Source: Gottfriedia acidiceleris (GTDB lineage Bacteria; Bacillota; Bacilli; Bacillales; Bacillaceae_G). From it: DNA of 64,000 nt. Made by a program: the position numbers and the translations under genes. How positions within the stretch are numbered: the first letter of the stretch is position 1; each line of letters starts with the position of its first letter. A model generated the notes under the pieces. The model was not told the origin of the DNA. It did no database searches and worked only from the letters and a program-made list of their open reading frames with translations. The stretch is from the NCBI RefSeq assembly GCF_002128425.1, contig NZ_NESS01000002.1, forward strand, positions 1-64,000, read 5' to 3'. This document shows positions 7,765 through 56,512 of the stretch, in pieces.

Positions 7765-7807
7765 AAAAAGTCGATTTTCAAATTTATGAAAATCGACTTT
7801 TATTTTC
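7765..7807 (+). terminator. Terminator of the sucrose operon
   Basis: AAAAAGTCGATTTTCA (7765-7780) pairs with TGAAAATCGACTTTT (7787-7801). It belongs to the AAGTCGA-type terminators, also seen at 40971-41006. Its right arm contains the ATG of the SpoVR-tail ORF. Confidence 0.85.
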
Positions 7808-8115
7808 CTATAGTTACGGATAAGGCATGGGAAAATGTAAGAGATCAACTTGTTGTTAGTAGGGTTAATAGCGGATTCCCATACATCGTTGTTCAAGAAG
7901 GTGATTATTTAAAAAATGGGGAGCTTTATTTGAAGCATTCCTATGAAAATATGGAATTAGATGTTGAGAAGGTAATGCTGTATATTCATCAGTTGTGGGG
8001 TAGAGGGGTACATTTGGAGAAGAACATTGAGAATAAGTCTGTGTTGTTTAGTTATGATGGGAAGAATATTCATCGGAAGTATATTCGATATATAATGAAA
8101 AGGTTAAATATTTAG
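7786..8115 (+). pseudogene. spoVR: SpoVR C-terminal remnant
   Basis: About 109 codons match, from memory, the C-terminal end of SpoVR, a spore-cortex-related protein of roughly 470 residues: RVNSGFPYIVV, GELYLKHSYENMELDVEKV, IHQLWGRGVHLE and LFSYDG. The first 360 or so residues are missing. The apparent ATG and the first codons lie in the right arm of the sucrose terminator, so the fragment was joined to unrelated sequence by a deletion or recombination. No ribosome binding site is present and the ORF sits behind a terminator, so it is probably not translated. A short downstream terminator (8157-8195) survives. Confidence 0.75.
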
Positions 8116-8156
8116 TTAGTACTGTGCATGGGAAATCAGTAAATAAAATCTTAAAA

Positions 8157-8195
8157 CAAAAAAGATTGCTTTTATTTATAAAGGCGATCTTTTTT
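8157..8195 (+). terminator. Terminator after the SpoVR remnant
   Basis: AAAAAAGATTGCTTT pairs with AAAGGCGATCTTTTTT, with a T-rich tail. Confidence 0.8.
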
Positions 8196-8272
8196 GTTTT
8201 ATAAAGTAAAAAAGTTTTCCAATATGTCATTTCAAAGTCAGCATATTAACTAATCTCTACTAATTCTAATTT

Positions 8273-8344: not shown

Positions 8345-8411
8345 GTTAGCATTATAAAATTTACATAATATTTACAATAATTTAAATTTTTTTACAAAAA
8401 TGGGAGGAAAT

Positions 8412-9317
8412 TTGAAGTTGTCAATCATAACTTTGTGTAATGGCGTAAATTATGAACTATCGTTAATAGGCTCAAAAGCTATGAATCTTTCAAAAATGGC
8501 AAAATTGTTTGATCATATTCCTGACGGGTTTATACTGACAGGAGAAGCTTTTGAGGCATTTTTATCGATTAATAACATTGAGACCACAAATAATGAAAGG
8601 GTTCAATTAGAAATTTTACAAGGTGAATTTCCTGATCAAATGAAAAGAACTATTCTTATGCAATTTGAGAGGCTAAAAAGTAATACATATGCAGTCGCCG
8701 TCCGTTCCTCATCAGCATTAGAAGACCTACGAGGAGCCTCTTTTGCAGGTCAATATGAAACTATTTTAAATGTTAGAAGTGAGGAAGAGTTATTAAATAG
8801 TATCAAGCGTTGCTGGGCATCGTATTTTTCTAGTTATGTACATGACTATGCGAAGAAAAATCAGATTTCTTTATCAGAGATCAAGATGGGTGTATTAGTA
8901 CAGGGAATGGTTGATGCAGATGTGGCTGGTGTAATTTTCAGTATGAATCCTGTGACATTTAATAAGCAAGAAATTATTATTAACGCAAGCTATGGCTTAG
9001 GGGAATCTGTAGTTGATGGATTGGTTACTCCAGATCTGTTTGTTCTTAATAAAGAATCCAAATTAATTATAAAAGAGCTTGGTCATAAAGAGATACAAGT
9101 TAGACCTATGGAAACCGGAATGGAAAAGACTGAAGTTCCTCCTTCATTGCAGGAAGTATTTTGTTTAGAGGATGAAAAAATCATGGACTTAATGGACATC
9201 ACAAAAAAAATAGAAAACTACTATCAACATCCAGTAGATATTGAGTTTGCTATAAAAAATAATCAATTATATATATTGCAAGTTAGACCGATTACTACTT
9301 TGAAGGGGGAAAAATAA
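8412..9317 (+). CDS. PEP synthase-like ATP-grasp subunit
   Basis: This 301-residue protein corresponds to the N-terminal pyruvate-phosphate-dikinase/PEP-synthase nucleotide-binding domain only. It shows the early lysine (SLIGSKAMNLSKM), AVRSSSALEDLRGASFAGQY, GVLVQGMV, GVIFSMNP and a closing ILQVRPITT. In PEP synthase and rifampicin phosphotransferase this domain uses ATP to phosphorylate a histidine on a mobile domain. Here that histidine domain is on the next gene, 2 nt away, so the two proteins should act as one enzyme. TTG 8412 is preferred over ATG 8400, because GGGAGG (8402-8407) lies between them. Confidence 0.8.
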   Translation: MKLSIITLCNGVNYELSLIGSKAMNLSKMAKLFDHIPDGFILTGEAFEAFLSINNIETTNNERVQLEILQGEFPDQMKRTILMQFERLKSNTYAVAVRSSSALEDLRGASFAGQYETILNVRSEEELLNSIKRCWASYFSSYVHDYAKKNQISLSEIKMGVLVQGMVDADVAGVIFSMNPVTFNKQEIIINASYGLGESVVDGLVTPDLFVLNKESKLIIKELGHKEIQVRPMETGMEKTEVPPSLQEVFCLEDEKIMDLMDITKKIENYYQHPVDIEFAIKNNQLYILQVRPITTLKGEK

Positions 9318-9319
9318 GA

Positions 9320-10966
9320 ATGGGTAAAGAGACGAATGTTTACGAATTAACGGATTTTAAAAAAAATTTATTTTTATCAGAGGAAGAAAAAACAGGATTC
9401 TGGGAACTAGACGGAGCTCACTTTCAAAAACCGTTATCTCCGTTATTTTCTTCCTTCATGATACCTGCGTTAACAGCTGGTACTTTGGAGGCTTTTGAAA
9501 AACTAAAGTTGCCGATGAAACAGTTTCATGCTAAATCATCAAATGGGTATTTTTACCAAACCGTCTTAACACATGAAGATCCAGAAACGCGCCTTAAGGA
9601 ACATCAAGCGTTAATGCAGTCTGTTTTCCCAAGAGCTGTCGAAATTTTTAATAATTATGTTAATGATACGCTATTACCTTTTTATAACCGTTTAGATGAG
9701 TATAAAAATAAAAGTCTAACACTTGTGGAAGCGGAAGAAAAAATATTTGAACTATATGAAATGTATGAAAAGATTTGGTCTATTCATTTTGAAGTGGTTA
9801 TGCCGAGAATATCTATAGGGGCTGCACTGCAAGAAATTTATGGCTCTTTATTAAATACGACAAATACAGCTGTTATCTATGATTTATTATTAGGAACGAT
9901 GAATAAGTCGCTTGAAACAGATCGAGAGCTATGGAAGCTTTCTATGCAAGTAAAAGAGTCCGGCTTATTATCAAAAATCTTTAGTGACACTGCTGCAAAC
10001 GAGCTTCTAGATTCATTACAGGATGTAGCGGTGGGACGACAGTTTATGGTTTCGGTTCAATCCTTCCTTGAAGAATACGGATATCGAACAGCAAATAGTC
10101 ATGAATTTGCCGATGAAACATGGGTAGAAAATCCTTATTATGTTTTAAAAATCATTAAAAATTATCTTGAGAAGGATTACGACTTTGAAGCTGAAATTGA
10201 GGAAGTAATTTCAAATACAGAACATAAAGTAAAAGAAGCTTTATCCAAAATGCCAGAGGGGGAATTAAAAGAAACGTTTAAAGTTCTTCATTATATGGCA
10301 TTAAATATGTGGGGATTGGATGAAGATCATCACTTCTATATTGATGCTATGCTGCCTGCAAAAGCACGTCCATTTTTATTAAATGTCGGTCAAACATTGG
10401 TAAAACATTCTGTCATTGAAAGGAAAGAGGATATTGTATTCCTTTATTTAGATGATTTAATTGAATTACTTAGAGAGCCAAAGAATTCATATGATTTAAT
10501 AAAGAATAGAAAAGAAGAGCATTTACGTAATCAAGCGCATACTCCTCAACCGTTCTTTGGTCAACCGCCAGCTGGTCCTATAGATCCAGTTTATGAGCTT
10601 GTATTTGGTGCAAAAATGCCTGATTTGAATCAAGTGACGAAAACATTTACCGGTTATTCTGGAGTGCAAGGATTATACAAAGGAACGGTAAGAGTGGTTC
10701 GTGATCAAAGTGAATTTGGTAAAGTCAAAAAAGGTGATATTCTTGTTTGTAAAACAACGACGCCTCCATGGACAGTCTTATTTACTTTAGTAGGTGGGAT
10801 TGTAACGGATGTTGGTGGTATTTTATCTCATGCAGCCACGGTAGCCAGAGAATACGGAGTACCTTGTGTAATTGGTACAAAAATTGCCACTTCAATGTTA
10901 AAAGATGGCGATATCATTACAGTGGATGGGACAAAAGGAGAAGTCATCATCCATGAGCAGAACTAA
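9320..10966 (+). CDS. Substrate-binding and phosphohistidine subunit of a PEP synthase-like enzyme
   Basis: The 548 residues split into a long helical region (about 1-450) without the PEP-synthase TIM barrel, and a C-terminal swivelling domain with GGILSHAATVAREYGVPCV (phospho-histidine His504). This resembles rifampicin phosphotransferase residues after its ATP domain, that is antibiotic-binding domain plus His domain, but split from the ATP-grasp part. Phenylphosphate synthase is also a split enzyme of this superfamily. I infer a phosphotransferase acting on an antibiotic, phenol or similar small molecule; the substrate cannot be told. A GGGGGA box precedes the ATG. The gene overlaps the following transporter gene by 14 nt. 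Confidence 0.75.
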   Translation: MGKETNVYELTDFKKNLFLSEEEKTGFWELDGAHFQKPLSPLFSSFMIPALTAGTLEAFEKLKLPMKQFHAKSSNGYFYQTVLTHEDPETRLKEHQALMQSVFPRAVEIFNNYVNDTLLPFYNRLDEYKNKSLTLVEAEEKIFELYEMYEKIWSIHFEVVMPRISIGAALQEIYGSLLNTTNTAVIYDLLLGTMNKSLETDRELWKLSMQVKESGLLSKIFSDTAANELLDSLQDVAVGRQFMVSVQSFLEEYGYRTANSHEFADETWVENPYYVLKIIKNYLEKDYDFEAEIEEVISNTEHKVKEALSKMPEGELKETFKVLHYMALNMWGLDEDHHFYIDAMLPAKARPFLLNVGQTLVKHSVIERKEDIVFLYLDDLIELLREPKNSYDLIKNRKEEHLRNQAHTPQPFFGQPPAGPIDPVYELVFGAKMPDLNQVTKTFTGYSGVQGLYKGTVRVVRDQSEFGKVKKGDILVCKTTTPPWTVLFTLVGGIVTDVGGILSHAATVAREYGVPCVIGTKIATSMLKDGDIITVDGTKGEVIIHEQN

Positions 10967-12281
10967 AGAGATTCTAATTTTACTAGCTATATTAACAGGG
11001 ACTATTTTGGTCCCTGTTAATTCAACGATGATTGCCGTAGGGTTACCGACGATTGCTTCAGAATTATCTGTTTCTATACCCGATATTACTTGGGTTGTAA
11101 CCATTTATTTAATCGTTATGGCTGTAGCTCAGCCAATTGCTGGGAAGTTAGGTGACATTTACGGAAATAAAAAGGTGTTACTAATTGGATTTTCACTACT
11201 GATCATATTTTCAGTAGCATGTGCTTTTTCATTTAATTTGGTTTCATTAATTATTTTCCGTTCTTTACAAGCACTTGGAGGAGCACTCGTTACCCCGAAT
11301 GCAACTGCAATCATTCGGTTCATCATCCCTAAAGAAAAACTAAGTAATGTCTTTGGTCTTTTCGGTATGTCAATGGGGTTGGGTGCATCAGTTGGACCAC
11401 TTCTTGGATCTGGACTCATTAGTCTATTCAACTGGGAAGCTATTTTCTGGGTGAATATTCCTTTTTTAATTATAGCCATTTTTTTATCTTGGTTTATGAT
11501 ACCAAATCAGAGTAAAACGAAAACAAATTCCTTAGATTTATTTGGTTCTATTTATCTTGGTATTGTATTAACGTTCATCACCTTGCTATTCACACATAAT
11601 GAGTACTTAAATGTATGGACCATTCTTACATTACTACTTTTCGTTGGACTATTTATTTATCAAGAACGAACTGCGAAAACGCCACTCATCGAGTTTTCCA
11701 TGTTTAAAAATAAAGCATTTTCTAGTTCGAATCTATCAATCTTAATTAATAATTTTGTCATGTACAGTACCATATTATTTATTCCAATTTTATTAAAATC
11801 TTATCATTTTACGATTAATAAGATTGGTAGTTTGTTATTTTACTTTTCTCTTGCTATGTCTATATCCGCTTTGGTTGGTGGGAAGTTAGCAAATAAATTC
11901 GGAAAAGAAAAAGTTATTATCTTATCTTTTCTATTATCTAGTTTTACCGTTTTATTTTATTTTGGATTTACTCCGAAAGTAACCTATCTTTATTTAATGA
12001 GTACTCTCTTATTAGGAGGTTTTTCTGCTGGTATTGGTGCAGCAGCCATGCAATCGACAAACCTAGAATCTGTATCAAAGGAAAAATCAGGTGTTGCTGC
12101 AGGGATCTATTCAACCTTTAGATATATAGGGGGGATGATGGCTTCTGCGGCGGTTAGTATTTTTGTAGGAAAGGTATTTTTATACGTCCTTTTATTAATT
12201 TTTTCCATAATAGGTCTTATCCTTTCAATTGTATTAACACTTGGTCAGGCTAAGTCGGTGAAAAAGTATTTAGTGGGATAG
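10953..12281 (+). CDS. MFS efflux transporter (DHA2-like)
   Basis: This 442-residue drug:H+ antiporter-type protein has 12-14 predicted membrane segments. Family motifs visible are GKLGDIYGNKKVLLIG (motif A loop after TM2), FRSLQALGGALVTPN and the antiporter motif C in LGASVGPLLGSGL. ATG 10953 overlaps the preceding gene by 14 nt, giving translational coupling. An upstream in-frame ATG at 10905 would lie deep in the previous gene. Coupling to a phosphotransferase suggests export of the same toxic compound that the enzyme modifies, or of its product. A terminator follows. Confidence 0.85.
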   Translation: MSRTKEILILLAILTGTILVPVNSTMIAVGLPTIASELSVSIPDITWVVTIYLIVMAVAQPIAGKLGDIYGNKKVLLIGFSLLIIFSVACAFSFNLVSLIIFRSLQALGGALVTPNATAIIRFIIPKEKLSNVFGLFGMSMGLGASVGPLLGSGLISLFNWEAIFWVNIPFLIIAIFLSWFMIPNQSKTKTNSLDLFGSIYLGIVLTFITLLFTHNEYLNVWTILTLLLFVGLFIYQERTAKTPLIEFSMFKNKAFSSSNLSILINNFVMYSTILFIPILLKSYHFTINKIGSLLFYFSLAMSISALVGGKLANKFGKEKVIILSFLLSSFTVLFYFGFTPKVTYLYLMSTLLLGGFSAGIGAAAMQSTNLESVSKEKSGVAAGIYSTFRYIGGMMASAAVSIFVGKVFLYVLLLIFSIIGLILSIVLTLGQAKSVKKYLVG

Positions 12282-12306: not shown

Positions 12307-12340
12307 AGGGATTGATTGCATTTTATCAATCCCTATTTTT
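12307..12340 (+). terminator. Terminator of the phosphotransferase-exporter unit
   Basis: AGGGATTGA (12307-12315) pairs with TCAATCCCT (12326-12334), then ATTTTT. Confidence 0.85.
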
Positions 12341-12608: not shown

Positions 12609-13382
12609 TTATTTAAAATATTTTTTTACAAAAGTATACACTGAATCCGCAAGTGTTTTTTTCCGTTCTATAAGATACCTATAAAGTGCTTCTTTGTCTT
12701 CAAGTGAAACATCCCAGTCCACAGGAATATCCCGAATCACTTCTTCGATTGACACTTCTGGCAATGACAAGATTTGTTCAATATAAGATGAAATGATTTT
12801 TAAGTCTTCTAGCATGCCAGCTGTCCAAATATGAACGACTGAATCCTTTTTAAACTTTTTGGGCTTTTGAAGAGTTTCTGCATTCCATTTGTATCCTCCT
12901 GGAAAACATTTTCCATGATCAATCATATGAATGTCATATTGTCCACCCGGAAGTCGTTCTAAAAGAATATTGCTTTTAGTGCGGTCAGCACCAAACACCC
13001 AATGATCGAATACGAGTATTCCGGCCAAATCATGGGGATTTTTCACTTCCTTTATAGCTGGATGAGGAGGTTTTTTCGCAAGGCCAGTACAATTATCTAT
13101 ATAAAGACTAGCAAACTGGTTGCCTGGTTTGTAATGAGAAGAAAATTTTTTTGGTATAAGCTGAATTTGCTCCTCGGACATATATACAATTTCAAATGGC
13201 ACTACAGGTAAAGACAGCAGTTGTCCTAGTCTAGCAACTACGAATTCGTTTACGAGCTCCCTTGTTCCGTGGAAATTATTTTTACATTTAACTGCATAAC
13301 GATTACCATCACTAAACGAAAATAAATGAGCAGCTTTTCCAGATAGCGTCTCCAAATATTTTTCCGGTACTATCGATGTCAT
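12609..13382 (-). CDS. HipA-like kinase family protein
   Basis: This 257-residue protein has a kinase-like fold related to HipA/PI3-4 kinases. Visible are a nucleotide-binding region with YAVKCKNN (Lys33 and neighbours), a catalytic loop FGADRTKSNILLE (Asp and Asn in the DRxxxN pattern) and a metal-binding HMIDHGKCFPGG. It lacks the HipA N-terminal domain and no HipB-type antitoxin is adjacent, so a classic toxin-antitoxin role is unlikely. It follows a small membrane-protein gene by 3 nt in the same operon. The substrate is unknown. Confidence 0.75.
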   Translation of the reverse strand: MTSIVPEKYLETLSGKAAHLFSFSDGNRYAVKCKNNFHGTRELVNEFVVARLGQLLSLPVVPFEIVYMSEEQIQLIPKKFSSHYKPGNQFASLYIDNCTGLAKKPPHPAIKEVKNPHDLAGILVFDHWVFGADRTKSNILLERLPGGQYDIHMIDHGKCFPGGYKWNAETLQKPKKFKKDSVVHIWTAGMLEDLKIISSYIEQILSLPEVSIEEVIRDIPVDWDVSLEDKEALYRYLIERKKTLADSVYTFVKKYFK

Positions 13383-55879: not shown

Positions 55880-55914
55880 ATTAATAACTAATAAATTAAA
55901 TAATAATTTGTTAA

Positions 55915-56085
55915 CAATTAGTTAAGATGCCTTAGGGCTTAATAGGGAATCTGGAGCAATACCAGAACTGTCCCCGCAACTGTAAGTGTGGACGAAATAG
56001 ACAAACCACTGAAACGTTTATATGAACGTTACGGGAAGGGTCTAAAGTAGGAAGATACACAAGTCAGGAGACCTGTCTTAGCTTT
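55915..56085 (+). ncRNA. Cobalamin riboswitch 1
   Basis: This adenosylcobalamin-type aptamer has GCTTAATAGGGAAT (about 55937), CCCCGCAACTGTAA (about 55972, the B12-box region), CCACTG...CGGGAAGG, and AAGTCAGGAGACCTGTCT (56060-56077). Terminator 56172-56203 is its likely expression platform. A 24-codon ORF lies between aptamer and terminator. Confidence 0.93.
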
Positions 56086-56116
56086 TAAAGTTTCGATTTC
56101 TTCGGGGGTTGAGAAG

Positions 56117-56191
56117 ATGAAACGTTTGGACAAAAAGGATTATTTATTAACTTTCTTTGTGCTGACGTTTTATCCGTTCAACTTATGTTGA
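56117..56191 (+). CDS. 24-residue ORF between riboswitch 1 and its terminator
   Basis: GGGGG lies 8 nt before ATG 56117. The product MKRLDKKDYLLTFFVLTFYP plus FNLC ends with TGA inside the terminator loop. It is hydrophobic. It may be a leader peptide, a decayed first gene of the operon, or chance. I do not recognise it. Confidence 0.3.
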   Translation: MKRLDKKDYLLTFFVLTFYPFNLC

Positions 56192-56203
56192 ACGGATTTT
56201 TTC
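56172..56203 (+). terminator. Terminator of riboswitch 1
   Basis: ATCCGTTCAAC (56172-56182) pairs with GTTGAACGGAT (56187-56197), followed by TTTTTT. Confidence 0.92.
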
Positions 56204-56267
56204 GTTTAAATCATTTTTAATCTTATAGTATGCCTCTAGAAGAAACAAGTCTTATTAAAAATTGAAT

Positions 56268-56432
56268 AGATTAGGATTGGTGCACTTTGTAAATTAGTGC
56301 TTAATAGGGAAGTACGGTTTAAATCCGTCACGGTACCCGCCACTGTAAGGGGAGTTCTTTGCAGATGTCACTGAAGTAATTCGGGAAGACGCAATAGAAT
56401 GATGAACCTAAGTCAGGAGACCTGCCTATACC
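56268..56432 (+). ncRNA. Cobalamin riboswitch 2
   Basis: This is a second complete cobalamin aptamer: GTGCTTAATAGGGAA (about 56297), CCCGCCACTGTAAGG (about 56336), TCACTG...CGGGAAGAC, and AAGTCAGGAGACCTGCCTA (56410-56428). A terminator at 56513 follows, then cbiW. With riboswitch 1 it forms a serial arrangement. Confidence 0.95.
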
Positions 56433-56512
56433 TAATAGCTTTAATCAACCTACGGGAACATAGGTAGAAGTGCTGAACTTACATTGCTATTTTTTTGTGT
56501 GTATTTTATTCT

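Follow-up and report, generated by a model that had tools for sequence, protein, structure and literature searches.

A split phosphohistidine kinase paired with a major facilitator exporter in Gottfriedia acidiceleris, a candidate conjugate-and-export cassette of Bacilli

Gene layout and kinase domains

The 64,000-nt stretch analysed here (the window; positions 1 to 64,000 of contig NZ_NESS01000002.1, Gottfriedia acidiceleris assembly GCF_002128425.1) carries three tightly packed genes for a two-subunit kinase of the phosphohistidine type and an exporter of the major facilitator superfamily (MFS). The open reading frames (ORFs) are as the initial annotation described them, namely an ATP-grasp protein, a protein with a swivel domain holding His504, and an MFS exporter of DHA2 type, a group that is defined by the MFS fold together with antiporter motif C. 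Near-obligate pairing of this kinase family with one exporter subfamily, in split and fused forms alike, is the main new result. The features of the locus are the following (aa, amino acids; RPH, rifampicin phosphotransferase):

8412..9317, + strand: stand-alone ATP-grasp (PPDK_N) small subunit, 301 aa, from ORF calling and Pfam
9320..10966, + strand: large subunit, 548 aa, helical RPH-like substrate domain and C-terminal swivel phosphohistidine domain
10322..10333, + strand: codons E335-D336-H337-H338, equivalent of ZPH1101 Asp627...His630
10829..10831, + strand: codon of His504, the phosphocarrier histidine, by position ZPH1101 His795
10953..12281, + strand: DHA2-type MFS exporter, 442 aa, starting 14 nt inside the kinase gene
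8152..8201, + strand: 24-nt inverted repeat between a SpoVR_C-like ORF and the operon
12307..12334, + strand: terminator-like hairpin 3' of the MFS gene

The two kinase genes are separated by 2 nt, a 14-nt overlap joins the large-subunit and MFS genes, and a plausible ribosome site precedes each of the three (GGGAGG, AAGGGGG and AAAGGAG). The small-subunit gene has a TTG start behind GGGAGG, and an in-frame ATG at 8400 overlaps that site. Because the hairpin at 12307-12334 follows them and the inverted repeat at 8152-8201 precedes them, the three genes look like one isolated operon. The arms of the repeat are 92% complementary with 2 nt between them, and it is probably the terminator of the upstream gene; terminator-like sites, including 12307-12334, show no excess over chance (2 observed vs 2.1 in shuffles).

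In Pfam, the small subunit matches PPDK_N (271 bits), and the PEP-utilizers match of the large subunit is confined to residues 470-540, where His504 sits within TDVGGILSHA. The small subunit aligns end to end with the ATP-grasp part of RPH. By profile, RPH is also the nearest solved structure of the large subunit, matching positions 201-545, whereas the match of solved phosphoenolpyruvate (PEP) synthases and PPDKs is limited to about 423-547. When profiles were compared, 24 split large subunits reached 99.9% with 17 RPH-like proteins (383 columns; residues 146-547) and 100% with four split relatives outside Bacilli (523 columns). The RPH-like domain order and the lack of a TIM barrel, both proposed at first sight, are thus borne out. 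For an ordinary PEP synthase broken in two, the probability is practically nil: automatic annotation does label related proteins phosphoenolpyruvate synthase, but the second subunit shows no barrel alignment, solved PEP synthases align with the swivel domain only, and TIGR01418 scores 232 and 90 bits against a cut-off of 740, so that this explanation is refuted by the sequence.

That the genes encode a rifamycin phosphotransferase in two parts together with its efflux pump is very improbable. This would account for the identical domain order and for RPH being the nearest solved structure, but NCBIfam RIF_Ptrans_rph stays at 203 and 146 bits (cut-off 999), and the Arg-Glu...Lys catalytic block of RPH, described in the accessible part of PMC4844700, is missing, its alignment position being taken by L-D-E-D-H-H-F-Y. 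RPH is a single chain, with 30% identity over the last part only. Furthermore, the same genome has a separate full-length RPH-like gene on contig C12 (L128:4908-7514; 1453 bits, cut-off 999), and none of 20 RPH-like loci has the MFS gene. Other models also stay below their cut-offs, including the prodigiosin ligase PigC (236 and 159 bits vs 1300) and the nearest two-component dikinase model, PRK08296.1-5 (183 vs 578); PigC and RedH models score alongside RPH models. In a genus mate, an RPH-like gene lies in two ORFs with a 4-nt overlap (L125:5363-7971), either a natural split or a frameshift.

Linkage of the kinase to one exporter subfamily

The window MFS protein matches MFS_1 (202 bits), and its nearest solved structures are EmrB, QacA-type and EfpA (profile matches of 125-136 bits). 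It scores 200 bits with the NCBIfam EmrB model (cut-off 230), and a crude hydropathy count gives 15 peaks, fourteen transmembrane helices being the DHA2 type. Although it shares motif C with these DHA2 exporters, it belongs to a separate subfamily tied to the kinase. The subfamily profile gives 752 bits for the window gene and 199 for the next best gene of the genome, and motif C is present in 47 of 48 linked MFS proteins.

Comparative counts refer to 49 unique Bacilli loci after duplicate removal (L121, a duplicate of L029, is left out). At 48 of them (25/26 split, 23/23 fused), the kinase is followed on its own strand, at a distance of no more than 1.5 kb, by an MFS gene of the same subfamily, and this conserved gene-pair search upholds the dedicated MFS neighbour that the initial annotation had proposed. 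Among the 23 fused loci, 14 have 619-693 nt between the kinase and MFS genes, and the intervening gene is TetR-type in both cases tested (L086, L090). At E 1e-8, the MFS profile found no match at the 20 control loci (RPH-like kinases of the same family, in stretches of 11.6-15 kb), one of which, L125, is the gene in two ORFs and another, L144, is possibly not an RPH, with the typical swivel motif missing. Across 397 genomes of the order, the profile at E 1e-90 matched 25 places in 23 genomes, all kinase-positive and each place at most 737 bp from a kinase match, and the subfamily was found in none of the 373 kinase-negative genomes. The only kinase-positive genome without an MFS match, G369, has its MFS gene in two ORFs (L094). 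Fisher's test for co-occurrence gives 2e-36 for genomes that are related to each other, and by genus both genes occur in 8 of 135. In addition, kinase and MFS are correlated over 46 loci (omitting L029, L121, L094 and L117) with a Pearson value of 0.87, which relatedness alone can raise. In the literature searched, subscription papers being outside its reach, no description of this pairing was found.

A competing explanation, which counts against a coupled function, takes kinase and pump as separate defences that act on the same compounds independently of each other, with the unmodified compound as the cargo of the pump. DHA2 pumps are often multidrug exporters, and the nearest structures of this pump are EmrB and QacA-type, as such a role would predict. 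However, the subfamily never occurs without the kinase in the 397 genomes and therefore suggests, without being exclusive, that the pump serves the kinase product; independent action is improbable.

Beyond kinase and MFS, neighbour clustering found TetR (17 loci) and SDR (7 loci), no other family being comparably recurrent, and no recurrent catabolic or biosynthetic gene set beside the Bacilli loci. In the window, a 109-aa ORF directly 5' of the operon (7786-8115) matches the SpoVR C-terminal domain only (39 bits), and a HipA-like kinase gene (HipA_2, 70 bits) lies on the opposite strand just past the MFS gene (12609-13382). No known RNA family was found in the leader before the operon at Rfam gathering thresholds, and an anti-phage system was rejected, with no PADLOC match. 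Farther away are two group II intron matches near the contig start (26-110 and 1294-1514) and a tandem pair of cobalamin riboswitches on the + strand (55908-56443; 109 and 111 bits).

Distribution, split and fused forms, and catalytic signature

The large-subunit profile at E 1e-90 matched 24/397 genomes of the order and 26/398 of the class, with 6 genomes in both; at E 1e-70 it matched 6/398 genomes of the phylum, 3 of them already found, and the 3 additional kinase loci have no MFS of the subfamily at comparable score. In the window's family, the split kinase occurs in 1 of 19 genomes, and some match at E 1e-20 occurs in 18, mostly RPH-like by length and score. From these counts, the module is patchy and centred on Bacilli. 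Scanned against named genomes, the large subunit matched eight loci: the complete three-gene set in Neobacillus sp. Marseille-Q6967, in two strains of Halobacillus litoralis and in two species of Paenibacillus (47-73% identity to the window across the three proteins), a broken copy in Brevibacillus massiliensis, and two loci matching over the swivel domain only. A search for plasmid relatives gave nothing close, with 28% for the best full-length match, and the fused gene L099 had no near match.

The kinase is split at 26 of the 49 loci and fused at 23. In other genera, the two genes of the split layout overlap by as much as 4 nt (L024) or lie as far as 45 nt apart (L027), and because the same layout recurs in many genera, the split is genuine and one ORF broken by sequencing error is rejected. 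In a careful tree of 56 large-subunit rows (L029 and L121 left out here and in a quick tree, L124 and L117 left out for their long branches), a Bacilli group of 47 rows (support 100/100) stands apart from RPH and other split relatives. Within this group, which also contains the 23 fused rows, the window belongs to a clade of 22 split rows (100/99), and two further split rows, L085 and L111, fall among the fused ones (99/92). The careful tree needs three changes between split and fused states, two of them forced by well-supported branches. The two trees root the fused rows differently, so that the original state may be either split or fused, the inner order of the group being unsettled. Two genomes, G252 (L083/L089) and G351 (L084/L088), each have one split and one fused kinase, each with its own pump, and each pump is nearest to the pumps of its own kinase form.

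At the position of the RPH Arg-Glu...Lys block, these kinases have an E/D-x-x-H signature, found at 48 of the 49 loci, all but the broken L029, and at none of the 20 RPH-like controls. The swivel motif was matched at 46 loci; L029 is broken, and L108 and L120 fall outside the pattern used. ZPH1101 of B. subtilis, a fused enzyme, is inactive as D627A, H630A or H795A, according to the accessible text of PMC11768653. Counterparts of this acid and both histidines are present in the window as E335, H338 and H504, with a spacing of 3 and 169 residues; the ZPH1101 spacing, 3 and 168, is shared by the fused proteins in groups f43 and f29 (12/12). The fused f43 genes adjoin genes of 661 and about 78-81 aa, which we take to be uvrB and csbA. 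Moreover, the yvkC upstream primer site is present at 10/10 f43 loci (exact in 2, with 1-3 mismatches in 8) and at 0/8 other loci. Because of these neighbours and this primer site, we take the fused f43 genes to sit at the yvkC locus.

The flavonoid phosphate synthetase (FPS) YvkC and the zearalenone phosphotransferases ZPH and ZPH1101 are like the window in their E/D...H...H signature, with spacing within one residue, and the yvkC-locus genes are also like it in belonging to one Bacilli clade of the large-subunit tree and having an MFS of one subfamily nearby; ZPH is placed in the clade by its residue spacing. In contrast, YvkC and ZPH are single chains, and no TetR gene lies between kinase and MFS in the window. 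In the accessible parts of two papers, YvkC is stated to phosphorylate flavonoids, and one adds AMP and orthophosphate as products. With these reports and that of zearalenone as a substrate of ZPH, the enzyme type is not new, and the novelty first claimed was overstated. The two-component build is likewise already known from HpeHI, CreHI and PpsAB (accessible text of PMC12167813), and what stands of the proposed new module is the coupling of kinase and pump.

Proposed function and meaning

We favour, with a probability of roughly 0.55, the reading that phenolic xenobiotics are conjugated and then exported by this three-gene cassette, the split counterpart of fused YvkC/ZPH. This reading builds on the observed gene structure, the relationship to RPH and FPS/ZPH, the catalytic signature and the fixed linkage to one MFS subfamily. 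The small subunit would bind and present ATP, and the swivel-domain His504 of the large subunit would be phosphorylated from it (ATP to AMP and Pi). The phosphorylated swivel domain would then move over to the helical substrate domain, where the phosphoryl group would be passed to a phenolic hydroxyl near E335/H338. The linked MFS antiporter would export the aryl phosphate, and would be needed because this charged product cannot diffuse out. For the split pair, the phosphoryl chemistry is presumed by homology to HpeHI and ZPH, and the phenolic substrates by analogy. Among the substrates proposed at the outset, a phenol is supported, and rifampicin is not, given the different catalytic block and the separate RPH. 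Export is suggested by motif C, the DHA2 relatives, the fixed pairing, and the harvest of isoflavone phosphates from culture supernatant (PMC12822132) despite ZPH being termed intracellular (PMC12259703), both as given in the accessible text of these papers.

Alternatively, the kinase may catalyse the first step of aromatic catabolism as do HpeHI, CreHI and PpsAB, its phosphate trapping the phenol and the MFS protein acting as an uptake or overflow carrier. Those systems also have separate ATP-grasp and substrate-plus-swivel subunits, and a phosphohistidine relay is probably common to them and the window. HpeH, CreH and PpsA are about 45% pairwise identical, as reported in the accessible text of PMC12167813; L122, a split relative of that general type, shows 29% identity. 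L122 and the distant split kinases L149-L151 carry an x-D/N-H-H-F signature, as does the window, and stand among oxidoreductase-like genes. By eye, the neighbours of L149, L150 and L151, from other Bacillota, are oxidoreductase- or ferredoxin-like and catabolic-looking. However, HpeHI, CreHI and PpsAB start catabolic pathways, whereas the window kinase belongs to a Bacilli clade with MFS linkage, in which MFS, TetR and SDR are the sole widely recurrent neighbours and the MFS proteins bear an exporter motif, so that a catabolic role is unlikely.

It is also quite unlikely that the enzyme tailors a metabolite made by the host itself or protects the cell against it, with the MFS protein as exporter, or, in a variant, that it is a condensing enzyme like PigC. 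The most divergent split kinase (L117 and L148, G590 contig C45) has very long ORFs behind it that resemble, by eye, nonribosomal peptide synthetase (NRPS) or acyl-ligase genes, a hint that an L117-type member serves a biosynthetic cluster, and PigC and RedH models score next to those of RPH. Against this, no biosynthetic gene set recurs at the other loci, and both PigC scores are far under the cut-off.

Several points weigh against the conjugate-and-export cassette. NRPS-like genes stand in place of the MFS gene at L117, and because of them a self-made product remains conceivable; the substrate could also be another phenol. Large-subunit identity to the fused f43 proteins is only about 34-36%, and substrates may therefore differ. 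The acid is Glu in the window and in most split proteins but Asp in ZPH1101 and the fused ones, and the tie to YvkC and ZPH draws on locus position and residue spacing, with two other yvkC primers, within or near the less conserved gene, found at 1/18 and 0/18 loci. A large-subunit structure model from 6 sequences was poor (mean pLDDT 57, pTM 0.36). RPH structures made up all of its six best PDB matches (E values of 2.6e-12 to 4.5e-10, with 7.6e-3 for the next match), but with TM-scores of only 0.21-0.26, and the fold assignment therefore rests on sequence profiles. Transport and its direction are suggested indirectly, by linkage and exporter motifs. No published assay of any split Bacilli member was found. 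In the accessible text of the sources, zearalenone removal still reached 80% after deletion of zph1101, down from 99% (PMC11768653), and deletion of yvkC was without effect on surfactin.

Bacillus cultures release isoflavone phosphates, and the literature searched, as far as accessible, names no exporter. The fixed kinase-MFS pairing provides an exporter candidate for these compounds in B. subtilis. There, the linked MFS protein is presumably YvkA. In addition, the E/D-x-H-H signature that replaces R-E...K, together with the neighbour gene, sorts misannotated PEP synthases into rifamycin-type and phenol-type enzymes, a distinction useful for mycotoxin removal and soluble flavonoid production. 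It is about an even chance that Bacilli possess a self-contained detoxification cassette in which an FPS/ZPH-type dikinase, in split or fused form, phosphorylates phenolic xenobiotics and its obligately paired MFS protein releases the aryl phosphates. If true, this would be the bacterial analogue of drug metabolism of phase II/III, with an MFS subfamily found nowhere else in the genomes searched.

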